A DNA stretch of 30,747 bases. Origin: a virus. Below, piece after piece: positions 3,110 to 20,517 of the stretch (position 1 is its first letter; each line of letters opens with the position of its first letter). The position numbers and the translations under genes are program-made. A model generated the notes under the pieces. That model was not told where the DNA came from. It worked only from the letters and a program-made list of their open reading frames with translations, and did no database searches. The DNA lies in IMG/VR virus record IMGVR_UViG_3300017739_000060, positions 1 through 30,747 of that record. One strand, given 5' to 3'.

Positions 3110-3586
3110 ATGTCGACATACAGCCCAAGAGCAAGTGGATTAGGAAATTCAGCAGCATATCAAGTAGCAGGAAAGCCTTACTTAACCGGATCAGCTATAG
3201 CTGCGGAAACCTCCAAAAACTATGTTAATTCAAAAGAATACAAAGTCGAGTTTCCAACTGTCACAAGAAAGGTTACGATTTACAATTTTTCTAACGACGC
3301 AGATCTCGCTGTTTACTTTTCGCCTAAAGCCACCGCACCAGCAACAATTACCGGGGTTCACTTTGCTATTGTTGGGTGCCAAACTGGATCTATTGAGCTG
3401 AATATTAAATGCAAAGAGCTTTACATTAGCCCATTCCCAACCAACGATTATGCCGGAGGGGGCGGAAACTTCGCAGGCGGTATTTTTGGAGTCGCAGCAG
3501 AACTTACTGGAGTACCAGCTTCTGATATGTATGCACTTACGGGCTCTGGAATAAACGTGTCCACATATGGTGATGGTCAAAATTAA
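3110..3586 (+). CDS. Probable small virion structural protein
   Basis: A 158-residue protein starting MSTYSPRASGLGNSAAYQVAG, preceded by a good RBS (TAGGAG). The sequence is rich in Gly, Ala, Thr and aromatic residues, with beta-rich segments (VTRKVTIYNFSNDADLAVYF; GSIELNIKCKELYIS) and a Gly-rich loop (YAGGGGNFAGG). This composition is typical of decoration or head-surface proteins. There is no signal peptide or membrane segment. It ends the head-assembly run and is followed by terminator-like hairpins. I suspect a capsid decoration or minor head protein, but know no defined family. Confidence 0.7.
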   Translation: MSTYSPRASGLGNSAAYQVAGKPYLTGSAIAAETSKNYVNSKEYKVEFPTVTRKVTIYNFSNDADLAVYFSPKATAPATITGVHFAIVGCQTGSIELNIKCKELYISPFPTNDYAGGGGNFAGGIFGVAAELTGVPASDMYALTGSGINVSTYGDGQN

Positions 3587-15787: not shown

Positions 15788-16372
15788 ATGGCAACAACCT
15801 CAAAGACAGCAAGCCCCGGATTTTGGGCATCAAAAGCTTCAGAAGCAAAAAGAAAGTATAGGTTTAAGCTTAGGGTCGCAATGGCTGGCAGCAGTTTTGA
15901 GGAGTGGGTAATTACTAAAGTAACTAGACCTAGCTTTTCAATCACAGACACATCTCACTCATACCTTAACCACACTTTTAAGTTTCCGGGAAGAGTTAAC
16001 TGGGAAGATGTTTCCTTCTCCTTGGTAGAGCCCCTAGCCACAGACTCAACTGATATTCTTATGGCTATGCTTTATAACTCAGGTTATAGGTTCCCAAGCA
16101 CAACCAACAGCAATACGATTGCCAAAGAGACATCCATCATTGATGCATTCGAAATTTCGGCGTTGAATGCGGGAGGGAGTGCTGTGGACAAGTGGACACT
16201 CAGAAACCCTTGGATCTCTCAAGCCAGCTTGGGCGAGTTTGATTATACAGCAGATGACTTGATGGGGATTGACATTACTGTTAAGTATGACTTTGCAATG
16301 TATCAAGATCTTCTCGGCACTGGATTAAACAAATTATCTAAGGAAGGCACAACAACTCCACAGCCATCATAG
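15788..16372 (+). CDS. 19: Tail tube protein (gp19-like)
   Basis: A 194-residue protein directly after the sheath gene, as in T4, where gp19 has 163 residues. Features typical of gp19 are KRKYRFKLRVAMAG, WVITKVTRPSFSIT, FPGRVNWEDVSFSLVEPL and a C-terminal GIDITVKYDFAMYQ strand. It is the structural subunit of the inner tube that is ejected through the baseplate and cell envelope. The RBS is AAAGGA. After the stop, 16373-16448 is an AT-rich gap without a convincing terminator. Confidence 0.9.
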   Translation: MATTSKTASPGFWASKASEAKRKYRFKLRVAMAGSSFEEWVITKVTRPSFSITDTSHSYLNHTFKFPGRVNWEDVSFSLVEPLATDSTDILMAMLYNSGYRFPSTTNSNTIAKETSIIDAFEISALNAGGSAVDKWTLRNPWISQASLGEFDYTADDLMGIDITVKYDFAMYQDLLGTGLNKLSKEGTTTPQPS

Positions 16373-16448
16373 TCAAATAAAAAAGATTAACATTTTTTCT
16401 AACTTATTATATACTTACAATAGACTCCAATTAATATACGAGGTATAA

Positions 16449-17297
16449 ATGAGCAGAAACAATGAAGATCGATTCGGTAGCCCCCTAGCTCCCGACCAAC
16501 CATTACCCCCACAAGAAATGCAACAGATGGCTCAACAGTCTGCAATGTCATATGTTACACCAACTGAGCTAGTTGACTTGCCTTCAAAGGGCAAATTCTA
16601 TTCCGAGGGTCACGCCCTCCACAATAAATCTGAAATCGAAATCAGGCACATGACTGCAAAAGATGAAGACATCCTTGTCAATCAATCTTTTCTGAAAAAG
16701 GGTGTTGCAATTGATAAGCTTCTAGAGAGTGTTATTGTTGATAAATCAATTAAGATAGCAGATCTTTTGGTTGGCGACAAGAACGCAATTGTGATCGCCA
16801 CAAGAATCTCAGGATACGGTGCAGACTACGAAGCGAAGGTGGCTTGTCCATCTTGCGGAAATGTGGAGGAAAAAGAGTTTGATTTAGATGAAGCTACCGT
16901 CTATAACGATGCATCGAATGATACGACAGAAAGCGGAACCTTCCTTATAACCCTCCCAAAAACTGGGGCAGTTGTTGAAGTTAGACCCTTGACTGGTCGT
17001 GACGAAGCAAAGTTGGTATCTTCTAACTCAACCAGAAAGAAGCACAAGCTTGCCCCACTAGGGTTGACAGACCAGATGAAAATGTATGTCAATAGCGTAA
17101 CTATGGATTCAAACGCAGTACCTGTCTCAGAATTCATTGACAATATGCCAGCTATTGATTCTAGATATCTTAGAACCGAGTATAAAAATTCGTTACCAAA
17201 CGTTGAACTTGCCCAGCATTTTGAATGCAGTAACTGTGGATATGAGCAAGTATTGGAGGTACCGTTTACCACTGACTTTTTTTGGCCTAAGCAATGA
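16449..17297 (+). CDS. 26: Baseplate hub / tail assembly protein (gp26-like) with zinc ribbon
   Basis: A 282-residue protein. Residues 38-120 carry the T4 gp26 (T4_baseplate) family pattern: ELVDLPSKGKFYSEGHAL, then EIRHMTAKDEDIL, and a VDKSIKIADLLVGDKNAI block. Cys133-x-x-Cys136 (CPSCG) and Cys260-x-x-Cys263 (CSNCG) form a probable zinc ribbon. T4 gp26 is 208 residues. The reading frame ends TTT TTT TGG CCT AAG CAA TGA, containing T7 (17277-17283). There the ribosome could slip into the downstream frame, as lambda G/GT proteins do before the tape measure gene. Such an arrangement would make this a tail assembly chaperone as well as, or instead of, a baseplate part. Confidence 0.8.
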   Translation: MSRNNEDRFGSPLAPDQPLPPQEMQQMAQQSAMSYVTPTELVDLPSKGKFYSEGHALHNKSEIEIRHMTAKDEDILVNQSFLKKGVAIDKLLESVIVDKSIKIADLLVGDKNAIVIATRISGYGADYEAKVACPSCGNVEEKEFDLDEATVYNDASNDTTESGTFLITLPKTGAVVEVRPLTGRDEAKLVSSNSTRKKHKLAPLGLTDQMKMYVNSVTMDSNAVPVSEFIDNMPAIDSRYLRTEYKNSLPNVELAQHFECSNCGYEQVLEVPFTTDFFWPKQ

Positions 17298-17472
17298 TTA
17301 TATTGAAGGCGTTTACGAAGAGTTATTTTCTCTAAAGTATCATGGCGGCTGGAGTCTTTTTGAATCCTACAATCTCCCTATCCAAATTAGGAGATGGTTC
17401 CTAAGAAGGTTGCAGAAGCAATTTGATCAAGAAAAGAGAGAATACGAGAAAGCAAGAAAGAGAAGTAGATAG
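17242..17472 (+). CDS. Short overlapping frame, probable frameshift extension of the gp26-like gene
   Basis: The frame read after T7 (17277-17283) encodes GLSNDYIEGVYEELFSLKYH and about 42 further residues, rich in aromatic and charged residues (HGGWSLFESYNLPIQIRRWF), ending in a charged helix. It resembles short tail-assembly chaperone T-domains. The only nearby in-frame ATGs are at 17137 and 17242, inside the gp26-like gene and without a convincing RBS. The ATGA at 17294 is in a third frame. The coding-looking sequence begins right at the slip site. A -2 or +1 shift would give a fusion of about 340 residues. Independent initiation at 17242 (76 residues) cannot be excluded. Confidence 0.65.
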   Translation: MSKYWRYRLPLTFFGLSNDYIEGVYEELFSLKYHGGWSLFESYNLPIQIRRWFLRRLQKQFDQEKREYEKARKRSR

Positions 17473-17477
17473 ACCAG

Positions 17478-17507
17478 AGACCAAAGTGTTTTTGGTCTAT
17501 TTTTTTA
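17478..17507 (+). terminator. Intrinsic terminator after the gp26-like pair
   Basis: AGACCAAA (17478-17485) pairs with TTTGGTCT (17491-17498) around GTGTT, followed by ATTTTTTTATT. This ends the tube / gp26-like unit. Confidence 0.8.
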
Positions 17508-17517
17508 TTAGTAACAA

Positions 17518-17541: not shown

Positions 17542-17871
17542 ATGAAAGATAACGACTCAAAAGAACTAGTGCCAGTTGAAATTGATTTAAATCCAGAAAC
17601 AATGGATGAATCATATCTTAGCGCCTTGGGATTTCAAATGAAATTTGTCCTAGGTGCTTTGTTTGGCAATGACTCCGTACCGCTCAGACTAAAGGGGACA
17701 AGTTCGCAAGTTACTAGCTTTGCTCGCGCATTAGGTAACGAGAAGAGATACTTGCAGTCTTTTGAAAAGTTTGGTTTAACGGACCCAAAAACACTAAACA
17801 ATAGGCACAAGTTAGAAAGAGCAGTTGCAAACTTTGAAAGAGAAACTGGAATAAAGTGGCCTTTCAAGTAG
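17542..17871 (+). CDS. Small hypothetical protein upstream of tape measure
   Basis: A 109-residue protein starting MKDNDSKELVPVEIDLNPET after a GGAGG site. There is no membrane segment or signal. The sequence has a hydrophobic helix (FQMKFVLGALFG) and a basic C-terminal half (YLQSFEKFGL, then NNRHKLERAVANFERETG), looking like a small helical domain. It lies between the frameshift cluster and the tape measure gene. Its position suggests a tail assembly role, but I do not recognise a family. Confidence 0.7.
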   Translation: MKDNDSKELVPVEIDLNPETMDESYLSALGFQMKFVLGALFGNDSVPLRLKGTSSQVTSFARALGNEKRYLQSFEKFGLTDPKTLNNRHKLERAVANFERETGIKWPFK

Positions 17872-17883
17872 GAATAAACCTAA

Positions 17884-20517
17884 ATGGCAGATGAGAAAAC
17901 CCCACAACAGCAAGCTGAACTAGAGGATTTGGTTGAAAAGACCAATCTAGCCCTAGAAAAGCAAGTTGAGTTTCAAGCCAAAATGACTAGGCTTAAAGGG
18001 GAAGAACTGTCTAAGGCGCAAGAATTAATAAATGTTTATGACGCCCAGCAACGCCAATCTCAAGAGTTTCTAGATTTAATTAAGCAAGAATATGAAACTA
18101 CTGAACAAATAAATAACTCTAGAAAGACACTACTAAAATCCCTAGAGGAAGAGAAGGCTAGAGGTCGAATCACCCTAGACAACTATAGAAGCCAAGTAGC
18201 TACCATTGAAGAAATACTTAAGGCCAAAGAGCGATCTCTTGGCGCTGACGGCGAACAAAAAAAGATAAACGATCTGATTTTAGCTAGCCTTGAAGCTCAG
18301 TTCACTTTGACACAAAAAACCAATGCAGAAAAAATTAGAGGCATTGATGCTGGAAACAAGATTTTTTCCAATGCAGTTGGTCTTTTGGGTATTACAAACA
18401 AGCAACAATCAGCGACAGCTAGACTAGTAAATAGTCTTGGTGATGGGGCAGATGGCATCTCGGGGATGCTTGAGGGTATGAAGTCCACTGCTCTAGAATT
18501 ATTTTCTTTTTCAAATCTTGCAGCTAGTTTTGTTGAAGATGTAATTCTTCTGACAGTCGAAACAGATAAGTTGACATCTAGCTTTGCCGGGATTGCTGGT
18601 GGTGGGCGAGATGTTAGCACTACGCTTTTGAATTCTCAACAAAATCTACAAGAGATGGGAATTTCTATGAGCGAGGTTGGGAGTGCCTTTAATGCGTTGC
18701 AACAGGACTTTGTTGACTTTACAACTTTAAGTGATACGCAGCAAAAAAGCGTTGGGGAACTAACGGCAAAAATGCAAAAGCTGGGTGTCTCTGGGACCAC
18801 AACAGCAGACAATTTCAAATTTCTAACGGCCACTATTGGTATGAGCGTTGGACAAAGCGAGAAAGAAATTGAAAGCTTCATAACAACTGCTGATGCATTG
18901 GGGATCCCATTCAACGATTACAACTCGGCATTTCAACAATTGCAGCCTAGGCTAGCTCTTTTCGGTAAGAGAGGACCAGAGATCTTCCGCCAAACAGCCA
19001 TGGAAGCCAAAAGGCTCGGTCTTGATATTGGTGAGCTAGGGAACACACTCTTTTCTATTGGAGAAGGCTTTGATGAATTTGATGAAGCTGCTGGCAAAAT
19101 TGCCTCTCTTAACTTGACCTTGGGTGGATCCTTCGTTAATACGTTCGATGTTGTTATGGCAGCAGCCGAAGGTCCATTCGCTCAGGTTAAAGAACTCCAG
19201 AAGGGGTTCGCAGCCGCAGGCAAATCTTTCAATGAACTAAACTTCAGAGAGCAGCAGTTCTTGGCAAAGCAGTTTGGGATCGAGGTTCAATCTCTAGGTG
19301 CTGTTTTCGATGGAACAGTTAGCAGCCAAGAAGAATTCAACAAAGAGACGAGAACAATCGACGATATTGTTAAAGATGCAGTTCCAGCAATAGATAAACT
19401 AATGGCAGGTCTTCAGGGTCTAGTTACAATATTCGAGCCTTTGATAAGTGGTCTCTCCACCGGGATTCAATTTCTTGCTAATAATATAAAAATTTTGGGT
19501 CCTATATTGGCTGTCGTAGCCGCAGGTTCTTTTGCTGCTTTTATATACGCAAAGATTCAAGCTAGAAAAGCAGCAAAGAAATTGACCGAAACGATAAAGG
19601 AAGCAGCAGCAGCAATTCAGCAGATAGCCCTAAACACAGGACCAGCAGCCGCTGGACTTTCAGCCATGGCAGAGGCGGCATCAAGTTATCCGGGAGGACC
19701 TACCGAAGAGCAGGCTAGCGCGATAGGAGATATCGGGGAAGCAGCCGAAGCAGCCGCCCCAGAATTAGAAAATCTTAGTGAAGTTTTGTCAGACAACACA
19801 GATATTACTAGCACCAACCTTTCCGCCGTAGACAAATTAAAAGGAGGAATCGGCGCTTTATCAGTCGTAGTCGGCGGTCTTTCGATGGGTTTTAGTGCCG
19901 CATCACAGGCTATAGAGATGGGCTCCGGTTTCCTTACAAAATATATGGGGATGTCTGAGAAGGCTGCGAAAATTACCGCATCTCTCGTAGTTGGACTCGG
20001 CGGGGCAATTGCAGCTTATTTCTTGCTCGGGGCAGCCAAAACAGCAGCAGCAGCAGGTCTATTCGCACCCGCAGCCTTGGGTGCATATGCAATGGCTGCT
20101 ACCGCTGTTGGGGTAGCTATCGCTGGAGCGTATGGAACTTATGAAGGCGCGACCATGGGCGGATCTAGTGCAGGCTCAGGAATGGACTTCAGTGCCGCAG
20201 CCGACAACCAAGGTTTTTCAATAGCCGAGCCTGTTAATGATGCTGTCATCCAGAACGACGGACAGAGCACCAAGATCACCCCAATCAATAGGCAAGATCA
20301 ACTTATAGCAGCAAAGCCCGGTGGACCAGTTGCAGATGTAATGGGCGCTATGGGCGGAGGTCAAGTACCTGAAAGACTTATAGTCGCACTAGAAAAAGTA
20401 GCAGAAGTGCTAGCGCGACCATCCGATAAGGACATCAATGTTACTGTCGAGTTAGACAAGAGAAAGATGGGGCAAGCTGTTGTTGCGGTGGTTGATAGAA
20501 AGTTGGCAATAACCTAA
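17884..20517 (+). CDS. Tail tape measure protein
   Basis: An 877-residue protein. Residues 1-150 are an alpha-helical coiled coil (QQAELEDLVEKTNLALEKQV). The middle is the tape-measure type: a helix with SFAGIAGGG, then DVSTTLLNSQQNLQEMGISM, repeated hydrophobic-Ala/Gly segments and long helices. Residues 520-560 contain a transmembrane-like run (ILGPILAVVAAGSFAAFIYA), and 690-770 a long Ala/Gly-rich hydrophobic stretch (AAYFLLGAAKTAAAAGLFAP). These fit a protein that sets tail length and may pass into the host membrane with DNA. It follows the frameshift-type cluster, as lambda H follows G/T. T4 uses gp29 (590 residues) for this role; no specific gp29 motif is evident. Confidence 0.8.
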   Translation: MADEKTPQQQAELEDLVEKTNLALEKQVEFQAKMTRLKGEELSKAQELINVYDAQQRQSQEFLDLIKQEYETTEQINNSRKTLLKSLEEEKARGRITLDNYRSQVATIEEILKAKERSLGADGEQKKINDLILASLEAQFTLTQKTNAEKIRGIDAGNKIFSNAVGLLGITNKQQSATARLVNSLGDGADGISGMLEGMKSTALELFSFSNLAASFVEDVILLTVETDKLTSSFAGIAGGGRDVSTTLLNSQQNLQEMGISMSEVGSAFNALQQDFVDFTTLSDTQQKSVGELTAKMQKLGVSGTTTADNFKFLTATIGMSVGQSEKEIESFITTADALGIPFNDYNSAFQQLQPRLALFGKRGPEIFRQTAMEAKRLGLDIGELGNTLFSIGEGFDEFDEAAGKIASLNLTLGGSFVNTFDVVMAAAEGPFAQVKELQKGFAAAGKSFNELNFREQQFLAKQFGIEVQSLGAVFDGTVSSQEEFNKETRTIDDIVKDAVPAIDKLMAGLQGLVTIFEPLISGLSTGIQFLANNIKILGPILAVVAAGSFAAFIYAKIQARKAAKKLTETIKEAAAAIQQIALNTGPAAAGLSAMAEAASSYPGGPTEEQASAIGDIGEAAEAAAPELENLSEVLSDNTDITSTNLSAVDKLKGGIGALSVVVGGLSMGFSAASQAIEMGSGFLTKYMGMSEKAAKITASLVVGLGGAIAAYFLLGAAKTAAAAGLFAPAALGAYAMAATAVGVAIAGAYGTYEGATMGGSSAGSGMDFSAAADNQGFSIAEPVNDAVIQNDGQSTKITPINRQDQLIAAKPGGPVADVMGAMGGGQVPERLIVALEKVAEVLARPSDKDINVTVELDKRKMGQAVVAVVDRKLAIT

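Follow-up and report, generated by a model that had tools for sequence, protein, structure and literature searches.

A conserved slippery site for probable +1 frameshifting in the gp26-like gene of T4-like phages

Frameshifting of the G-T type is widespread in long-tailed phages, T4 excepted, and shifts of -1, -2 and +1 all occur (2016 review, PMC5009743). In phage lambda a late frameshift adds a C-terminal domain to gpG to give gpGT, and phage Mu uses a -2 shift for its tail chaperone (PMC5009743). Hub assembly chaperones listed for T4 include gp26 and gp51, the latter being essential and absent from the virion (PMC3004832). For T4-like phages, the study by Vladimirov, Gautam and Davidson (Virology 2022; pmid 34826709) reportedly describes tail assembly chaperones (TACs) in two forms, TAC-N and TAC-NC, and a passage of PMC12846349 citing that study reports poly-T frameshift signals in some T4-like groups and another mechanism in others. 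Here we describe a gp26-like gene within a 30,747-nt stretch of viral DNA, the IMG/VR record IMGVR_UViG_3300017739_000060 (hereafter the window, by whose positions its features are numbered). Its first open reading frame (ORF1) ends shortly after a run of seven T residues (T7), and a second (ORF2) opens at the same run in the +1 frame. The explanation that we favour as a whole, with a probability of about 0.87 based on comparative sequence analysis, is a two-product chaperone gene of a T4-like contractile-tailed phage, decoded by +1 slippage of the P-site tRNA.

This candidate shift resembles the described systems in some respects and departs from them in others. Like gpGT, the predicted long product would carry a C-terminal domain added by a late frameshift, but lambda shifts -1 at a different site, whereas the window gene would shift +1 and encodes a TAC-N that is larger, contains CxxC and belongs to another family (PF12322). 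The Mu chaperone shares the function class and final reading frame, although its -2 mode is disfavoured in the window family by variants lacking T7. The bacterial prfB gene (CUU UGA C) has in common with the proposed shift a single P-site tRNA slipping +1 on YUU_U, and a minority of prfB genes carry UUU_U (PMC5009743). However, prfB places a stop codon in the A site behind a strong internal Shine-Dalgarno (SD) sequence and is autoregulatory, whereas the window presents the sense codon UGG, has no strong SD sequence and is not autoregulatory. The sites of Vladimirov et al. are cited as -1 signals in the passage of PMC12846349, unlike the +1 arrangement of the window group.

Anatomy and conservation of the locus

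The anatomy of the candidate frameshift locus and its conservation are matters of direct observation. ORF1 starts with ATG, is preceded by GAGG at 16440-16443 and ends ...VPFTTDFFWPKQ before the stop codon. It belongs to PF12322 (T4_baseplate; 63.7 bits, E 2.7e-17, cut-off 24.5) and also matches PHROG 150, baseplate hub. The window contains a single PF12322 place, and no separate, complete long-form gene of the T4 two-gene type was found there. Frame 0 across the site reads GAC TTT TTT TGG CCT AAG CAA TGA. A preliminary description of the window had located the end of the gp26-like frame just past the TGG and had called the +1 frame coding-looking from GLSNDYIEG on, and both observations held. 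Read in frame +1 (equivalently -2), ORF2 translates as GLSNDYIEGVYEELFSLKYHGGWSLFESYNLPIQIRRWFLRRLQKQFDQEKREYEKARKRSR, and joining its 62 codons to 278 of ORF1 gives a predicted fusion, TAC-NC, of 340 residues compared with the 282 of the short form.

Viral contigs searched with three queries, namely ORF1, ORF2 by itself and a broad alignment, yielded 240 loci, and further loci came from named phages and from bacterial genome contigs, mostly metagenome-assembled genomes (MAGs). A recognisable site was present in 263 loci, of which 199 were non-redundant at 90% identity around the site, and in 194 of these the second frame opens +1 at the same Phe-Phe site (the +1 class). Conservation of the T-run, which the preliminary description had proposed as a check, was extensive: the site is TTT TTT TGG in 165 of the 199 loci, TTC TTT TGG in 12, TTT CTT TGG in six and TTT TTT TAC in four, with a few others. 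Variants without T7 that retain the +1 frame include TTC TTT TGG, TTT CTT TGG and TTC TTT CGT. The pattern extends to sequences of about 25-30% protein identity, and ORF2 hits obtained independently of ORF1 had the same kind of site in front each time. At the site the +1 frame stays open for at least 45 codons in 192 of the 194 loci, the remaining two running off contig ends; as a control, a +1 frame opened at random inside the same genes remained open that long in 3.0% of trials.

The arrangement is shared by isolate genomes such as Microcystis phage Mel-JY01, Flavobacterium phage immuto, Bacillus phage SP-15, LIS04 and GXN1. In the records of immuto, SP-15 and LIS04 (L003, L005 and L007), ORF2 is annotated as a shorter ORF only or left unannotated. 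A huge-phage relative (L002, LR756508.1, about 3215-3256) has a similar +1-frame ORF2 behind a non-standard AAC TTT CTA TTC CCT. In addition, the same gp26 locus lies near both ends of one 305,838-base MAG contig (NHDW01000006.1, L188 and L189), which suggests that assembly of a viral genome of about 280 kb ran on beyond the point where it began.

Constraint on the nucleotides changes at the site. Among 146 pairs of related loci, differences followed frame-0 wobble before it and +1-frame wobble after it, with substitution rates by frame-0 codon position of 0.24/0.12/0.48 upstream (frame 0) and 0.44/0.14/0.06 downstream (equivalent to frame +1), the switch falling at the site and T7 itself showing almost no substitutions. 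Wherever the slip codon encodes Phe, in 187 cases, it is TTT (same-gene background 68%), and in the other 7 of the 194 it is CTT, the shift codon of bacterial prfB (CTT to TTT slip). The first Phe codon is freer, with TTC in 17 of 194, and a T directly precedes the run in only four loci, where 86.5 were expected. T7 runs are not rare in the AT-rich window, which has five in 30.7 kb, so the run alone is no evidence; its conservation at that codon position is.

Probable slippage at the T7 run and its alternatives

These comparisons point to a +1 programmed frameshift at T7 that is real, conserved and very probably functional, and that would yield the long form of a T4-type tail assembly chaperone. 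The gene most likely encodes TAC-N (282 residues) and TAC-NC (340 residues). Most ribosomes would terminate at the TGA and release the short form, while in a minority the second TTT would be held by tRNA-Phe in the P site, with TGG awaiting in the A site. That tRNA would move one base forward onto the overlapping TTT and reading would resume at GGC CTA AGC, so that the long form would end in a helical C-terminal domain (...TTDFF-GLSNDYIEG...). The junction peptide predicted for Glu-C digestion is VPFTTDFFGLSNDYIE, containing two Phe residues where a -2 shift would leave three. By analogy with lambda gpG and gpGT, the short form may coat the tape measure protein and the long form may recruit tail tube subunits. 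The occurrence of the slip, its efficiency and the chaperone function are inferred. Consistent with +1 slippage, the P-site codon can re-pair one base 3' in cognate or prfB-like fashion in every locus but LIS04, the only one in which strict TTY pairing fails, and the slip codon is conserved at the nucleotide level. Moreover, the second-frame domain is conserved, overlaps ORF1 and lacks a conserved start of its own, as expected of a chaperone frameshift.

We also folded ORF1 and ORF2 separately. ORF2 was predicted as three helices with a predicted local distance difference test (pLDDT) score of 92.6, and its model had no PDB match in the structure search. The ORF1 model (pLDDT 88.8) had named viral structural matches that were largely gp26-family baseplate hub proteins. 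In the PDB search with ORF1, the HK97 chaperone 2ob9 ranked third at a non-significant E value of 1.6, which provides no evidence for a chaperone fold.

Several observations weigh against +1 slippage as set out here. No convincing or strong downstream stimulatory RNA structure was found across the relatives (mean z -0.65), and upstream there is only a weak SD-like (anti-SD) bias. The locus counts and p-values ignore shared ancestry, so the p-values are indicative only. Two further points bear on particular alternatives: T7 lets the P-site tRNA re-pair perfectly two bases back in the window and most relatives, and distant actinobacterial relatives start the second domain with a GTG of its own that overlaps the upstream stop as GTGA, behind a GGGGGA motif.

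The first of these would suit a ribosomal -2 frameshift at T7 as in phage Mu (PMC5009743), giving one extra Phe (TTDFFFGLSND), and the LIS04 site (GAG TTT TTT AGT) fits -2 better than +1. The preliminary description had allowed either a -2 or a +1 shift; the frame was right, and variants whose run is only T3 or T4 point to +1 for the family. In 17 non-redundant loci the first Phe codon is TTC and the frame is kept, although -2 re-pairing would be non-cognate there, so that Mu-type re-pairing does not hold across the family. Moreover, the second Phe codon is only ever TTT or CTT, whereas the first may be TTC. We therefore regard a -2 shift as improbable.

Transcriptional slippage, in which the polymerase would produce a mixed mRNA population at T7, is more doubtful still. 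A T7 homopolymer is a known type of template for polymerase slippage, but 23 of the 194 loci retain the +1 frame although the T run at the site reaches no more than 3 or 4 residues, and lengthening of the run is avoided, as the depletion of T at its 5' side indicates.

Equally doubtful is a separate ORF2 gene with its own start, coupled to ORF1 termination. Mel-JY01 and some jumbo phages do carry a separate-gene annotation of ORF2, and the actinobacterial relatives have the GTGA overlap described above. In the phage relatives examined, however, we found no conserved start, in line with the statement in the preliminary description that the second frame has no plausible one. In 48 of 194 loci no ATG, GTG or TTG lies in the stretch that runs from the preceding in-frame stop to +1 codon 12, in-frame stops lie as near as 3-5 codons 5' of the junction codon in relatives, and the +1 frame comes under protein-like constraint from the slip site onwards. 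The preliminary description had begun the region of interest at 17242, where an in-frame ATG does lie 14 codons 5' of the junction; a start at that position is present in only 40 of 194 loci, no position is shared by more, and many relatives have a nearer in-frame stop. A start of the kind that would have spoken for two genes is seen in the actinobacterial loci (L283, L285 and L286), in which a short gp26-like ORF with CxxC is followed by a DUF6760 ORF with its own GTG. That pair is apparently expressed by coupling and probably belongs to phage-tail-like injection systems, the system type and the ORF1 homology being judged by eye. DUF6760 (PF20546) was also tried as a name for ORF2 and rejected, since weak hits in 20 of 32 members (best E 3e-4) make the two related at best.

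Finally, a sequencing or assembly error or a decayed gene can be dismissed: homopolymers are error-prone, but the identical arrangement in 194 divergent loci, including isolate genomes, refutes this explanation.

The jumbo-phage branch and T4 gp26 and gp51

Homologues in jumbo phages (BF, CBB, GAP32, XacN1, CM1 and relatives) have the same ORF1 family, the same Phe-Phe site and a homologous ORF2, but differ from the window in that ORF2 lies in the -1 frame, as it does in all 49 non-redundant loci of this branch with a Phe-Phe site. The sites are T_TTT_TTC in 46 of the 49, T_TTT_TTT in two and GGT TTT TTC in one (L010). A search of viral contigs with XacN1 gp26 alone gave no matches. Two jumbo-type loci (L307 and L314, near 2830) lack a frame-0 Phe-Phe and carry a -1 ORF2 behind GTA AAT TTT TCA TAA (A_AAT_TTT heptamer), and a further locus (L193, MGSU01000015.1) has TTC TTC CTG with a -1-frame ORF2.

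Profile comparison by hhalign shows homology between the -1 and +1 ORF2 families (E 8e-9, with a score that none of 100 column shuffles reached), and it relates -1-class ORF2 to the C-terminal tail of T4 gp51 (E 8.5e-6; 0 of 100 shuffles). As a further point on the opposing side, a direct hhalign comparison of window-clade ORF2 with the gp51 tail was not significant, and a broader alignment (E 0.0014) was suggestive; full-length fusions matched gp51 weakly (E 0.00046 over 52 columns; E 0.0026). The connection between window ORF2 and the gp51 tail is drawn because -1-class ORF2 supplied the intermediate link. T4 gp26 and gp51 both match PF12322, the domain of window ORF1, gp51 over residues 1-201 of 249 with an ORF2-like extension at its C-terminus, but they are two separate genes without a frameshift. 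A tree of 92 ORF1 proteins placed the rows for T4 gp26 and gp51 in one group (100/100), apart from the frameshifting genes; the -1 rows formed one group except for L010, and four label changes were sufficient. Because gp26 and gp51 share PF12322, the gp51 tail is ORF2-like and the tree groups them, it is plausible that duplication took the place of the frameshift in the T4 lineage. The abstract of the 2022 study by Vladimirov and colleagues reportedly describes frameshifting as conserved in several T4-like groups, with separate genes 26 and 51 in T4 itself.

We consider the odds about even that all of this is one family in which the base before Phe-Phe sets the direction of the shift (C/G TTT TTT TGG giving +1, T TTT TTC giving -1), in which the gp26/gp51 duplication replaced the shift in T4 relatives, and of which the +1 class, whose A site holds a sense codon for Trp, is an abundant and hitherto undescribed form of phage chaperone frameshift. 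The preliminary description had presented frameshifting in a T4-like gp26 gene as a new extension of the principle. It is not new: chaperone frameshifting in T4-like phages as a general principle is already published (Vladimirov et al. 2022; pmid 34826709), and our gp26/gp51 result most likely repeats theirs. The +1 direction of the large group and the one-base rule (C/G to +1, T to -1) may be new, and we did not find them stated elsewhere in a limited literature search.

Gene neighbourhood and significance

The gene order of tail tube, gp26-like gene, small gene and tape measure is that expected for a tail chaperone, and the tape measure gene anticipated downstream in the preliminary description is indeed there (Table 1). 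The small gene (17542-17871) encodes 109 residues without a PHROG match. Just 5' of the gp26-like gene is a sigma-70-like match at 16387-16415 (TTAACA, 17 nt, TATACT), of a kind whose regional count is not above that of shuffles. Mel-JY01 has a hairpin similar to that of the window at the equivalent place (L001, about 3478-3515), as judged by eye.

Table 1. Positions of the frameshift locus and neighbouring features in the window
Feature	Position	Strand	Remarks
ORF1 / TAC-N, gp26-like, 282 aa, two CxxC pairs	16449..17297	+	PF12322, PHROG 150, ATG start
C immediately 5' of the T-run	17276..17276	+	In relatives, T rarer than expected at this base in the +1 class but almost always present in the -1 class
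T7 run, candidate slippery site	17277..17283	+	First Phe codon 17277-17279, slip (P-site) TTT 17280-17282, A-site TGG 17283-17285
ORF2 / TAC-C, +1-frame extension, 62 codons, predicted three-helix domain	17284..17472	+	GGC 17284 to TAG 17470-17472
Frame-0 stop TGA, fourth codon past TGG	17295..17297	+	In relatives, 3-6 codons past the slip codon in nearly all
Intrinsic-terminator-like hairpin and T-run directly 3' of ORF2	17467..17510	+	Pattern match only
Tail tube protein, upstream context	15788..16372	+	
Tape measure protein, downstream context	17884..20517	+	One small gene intervening

Taken together, our results would assign both a function and a second product to a gene that is entered in public records as a baseplate hub subunit, or whose ORF2 extension goes unannotated or is called hypothetical there; the phages concerned are a large T4-like group, marine and other. 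In addition, the family would offer a natural series of solutions (+1 shift, -1 shift, two genes, coupled start) to the need for a short and a long chaperone, and it would supply a simple rule, open to testing, for which way the ribosome slips.
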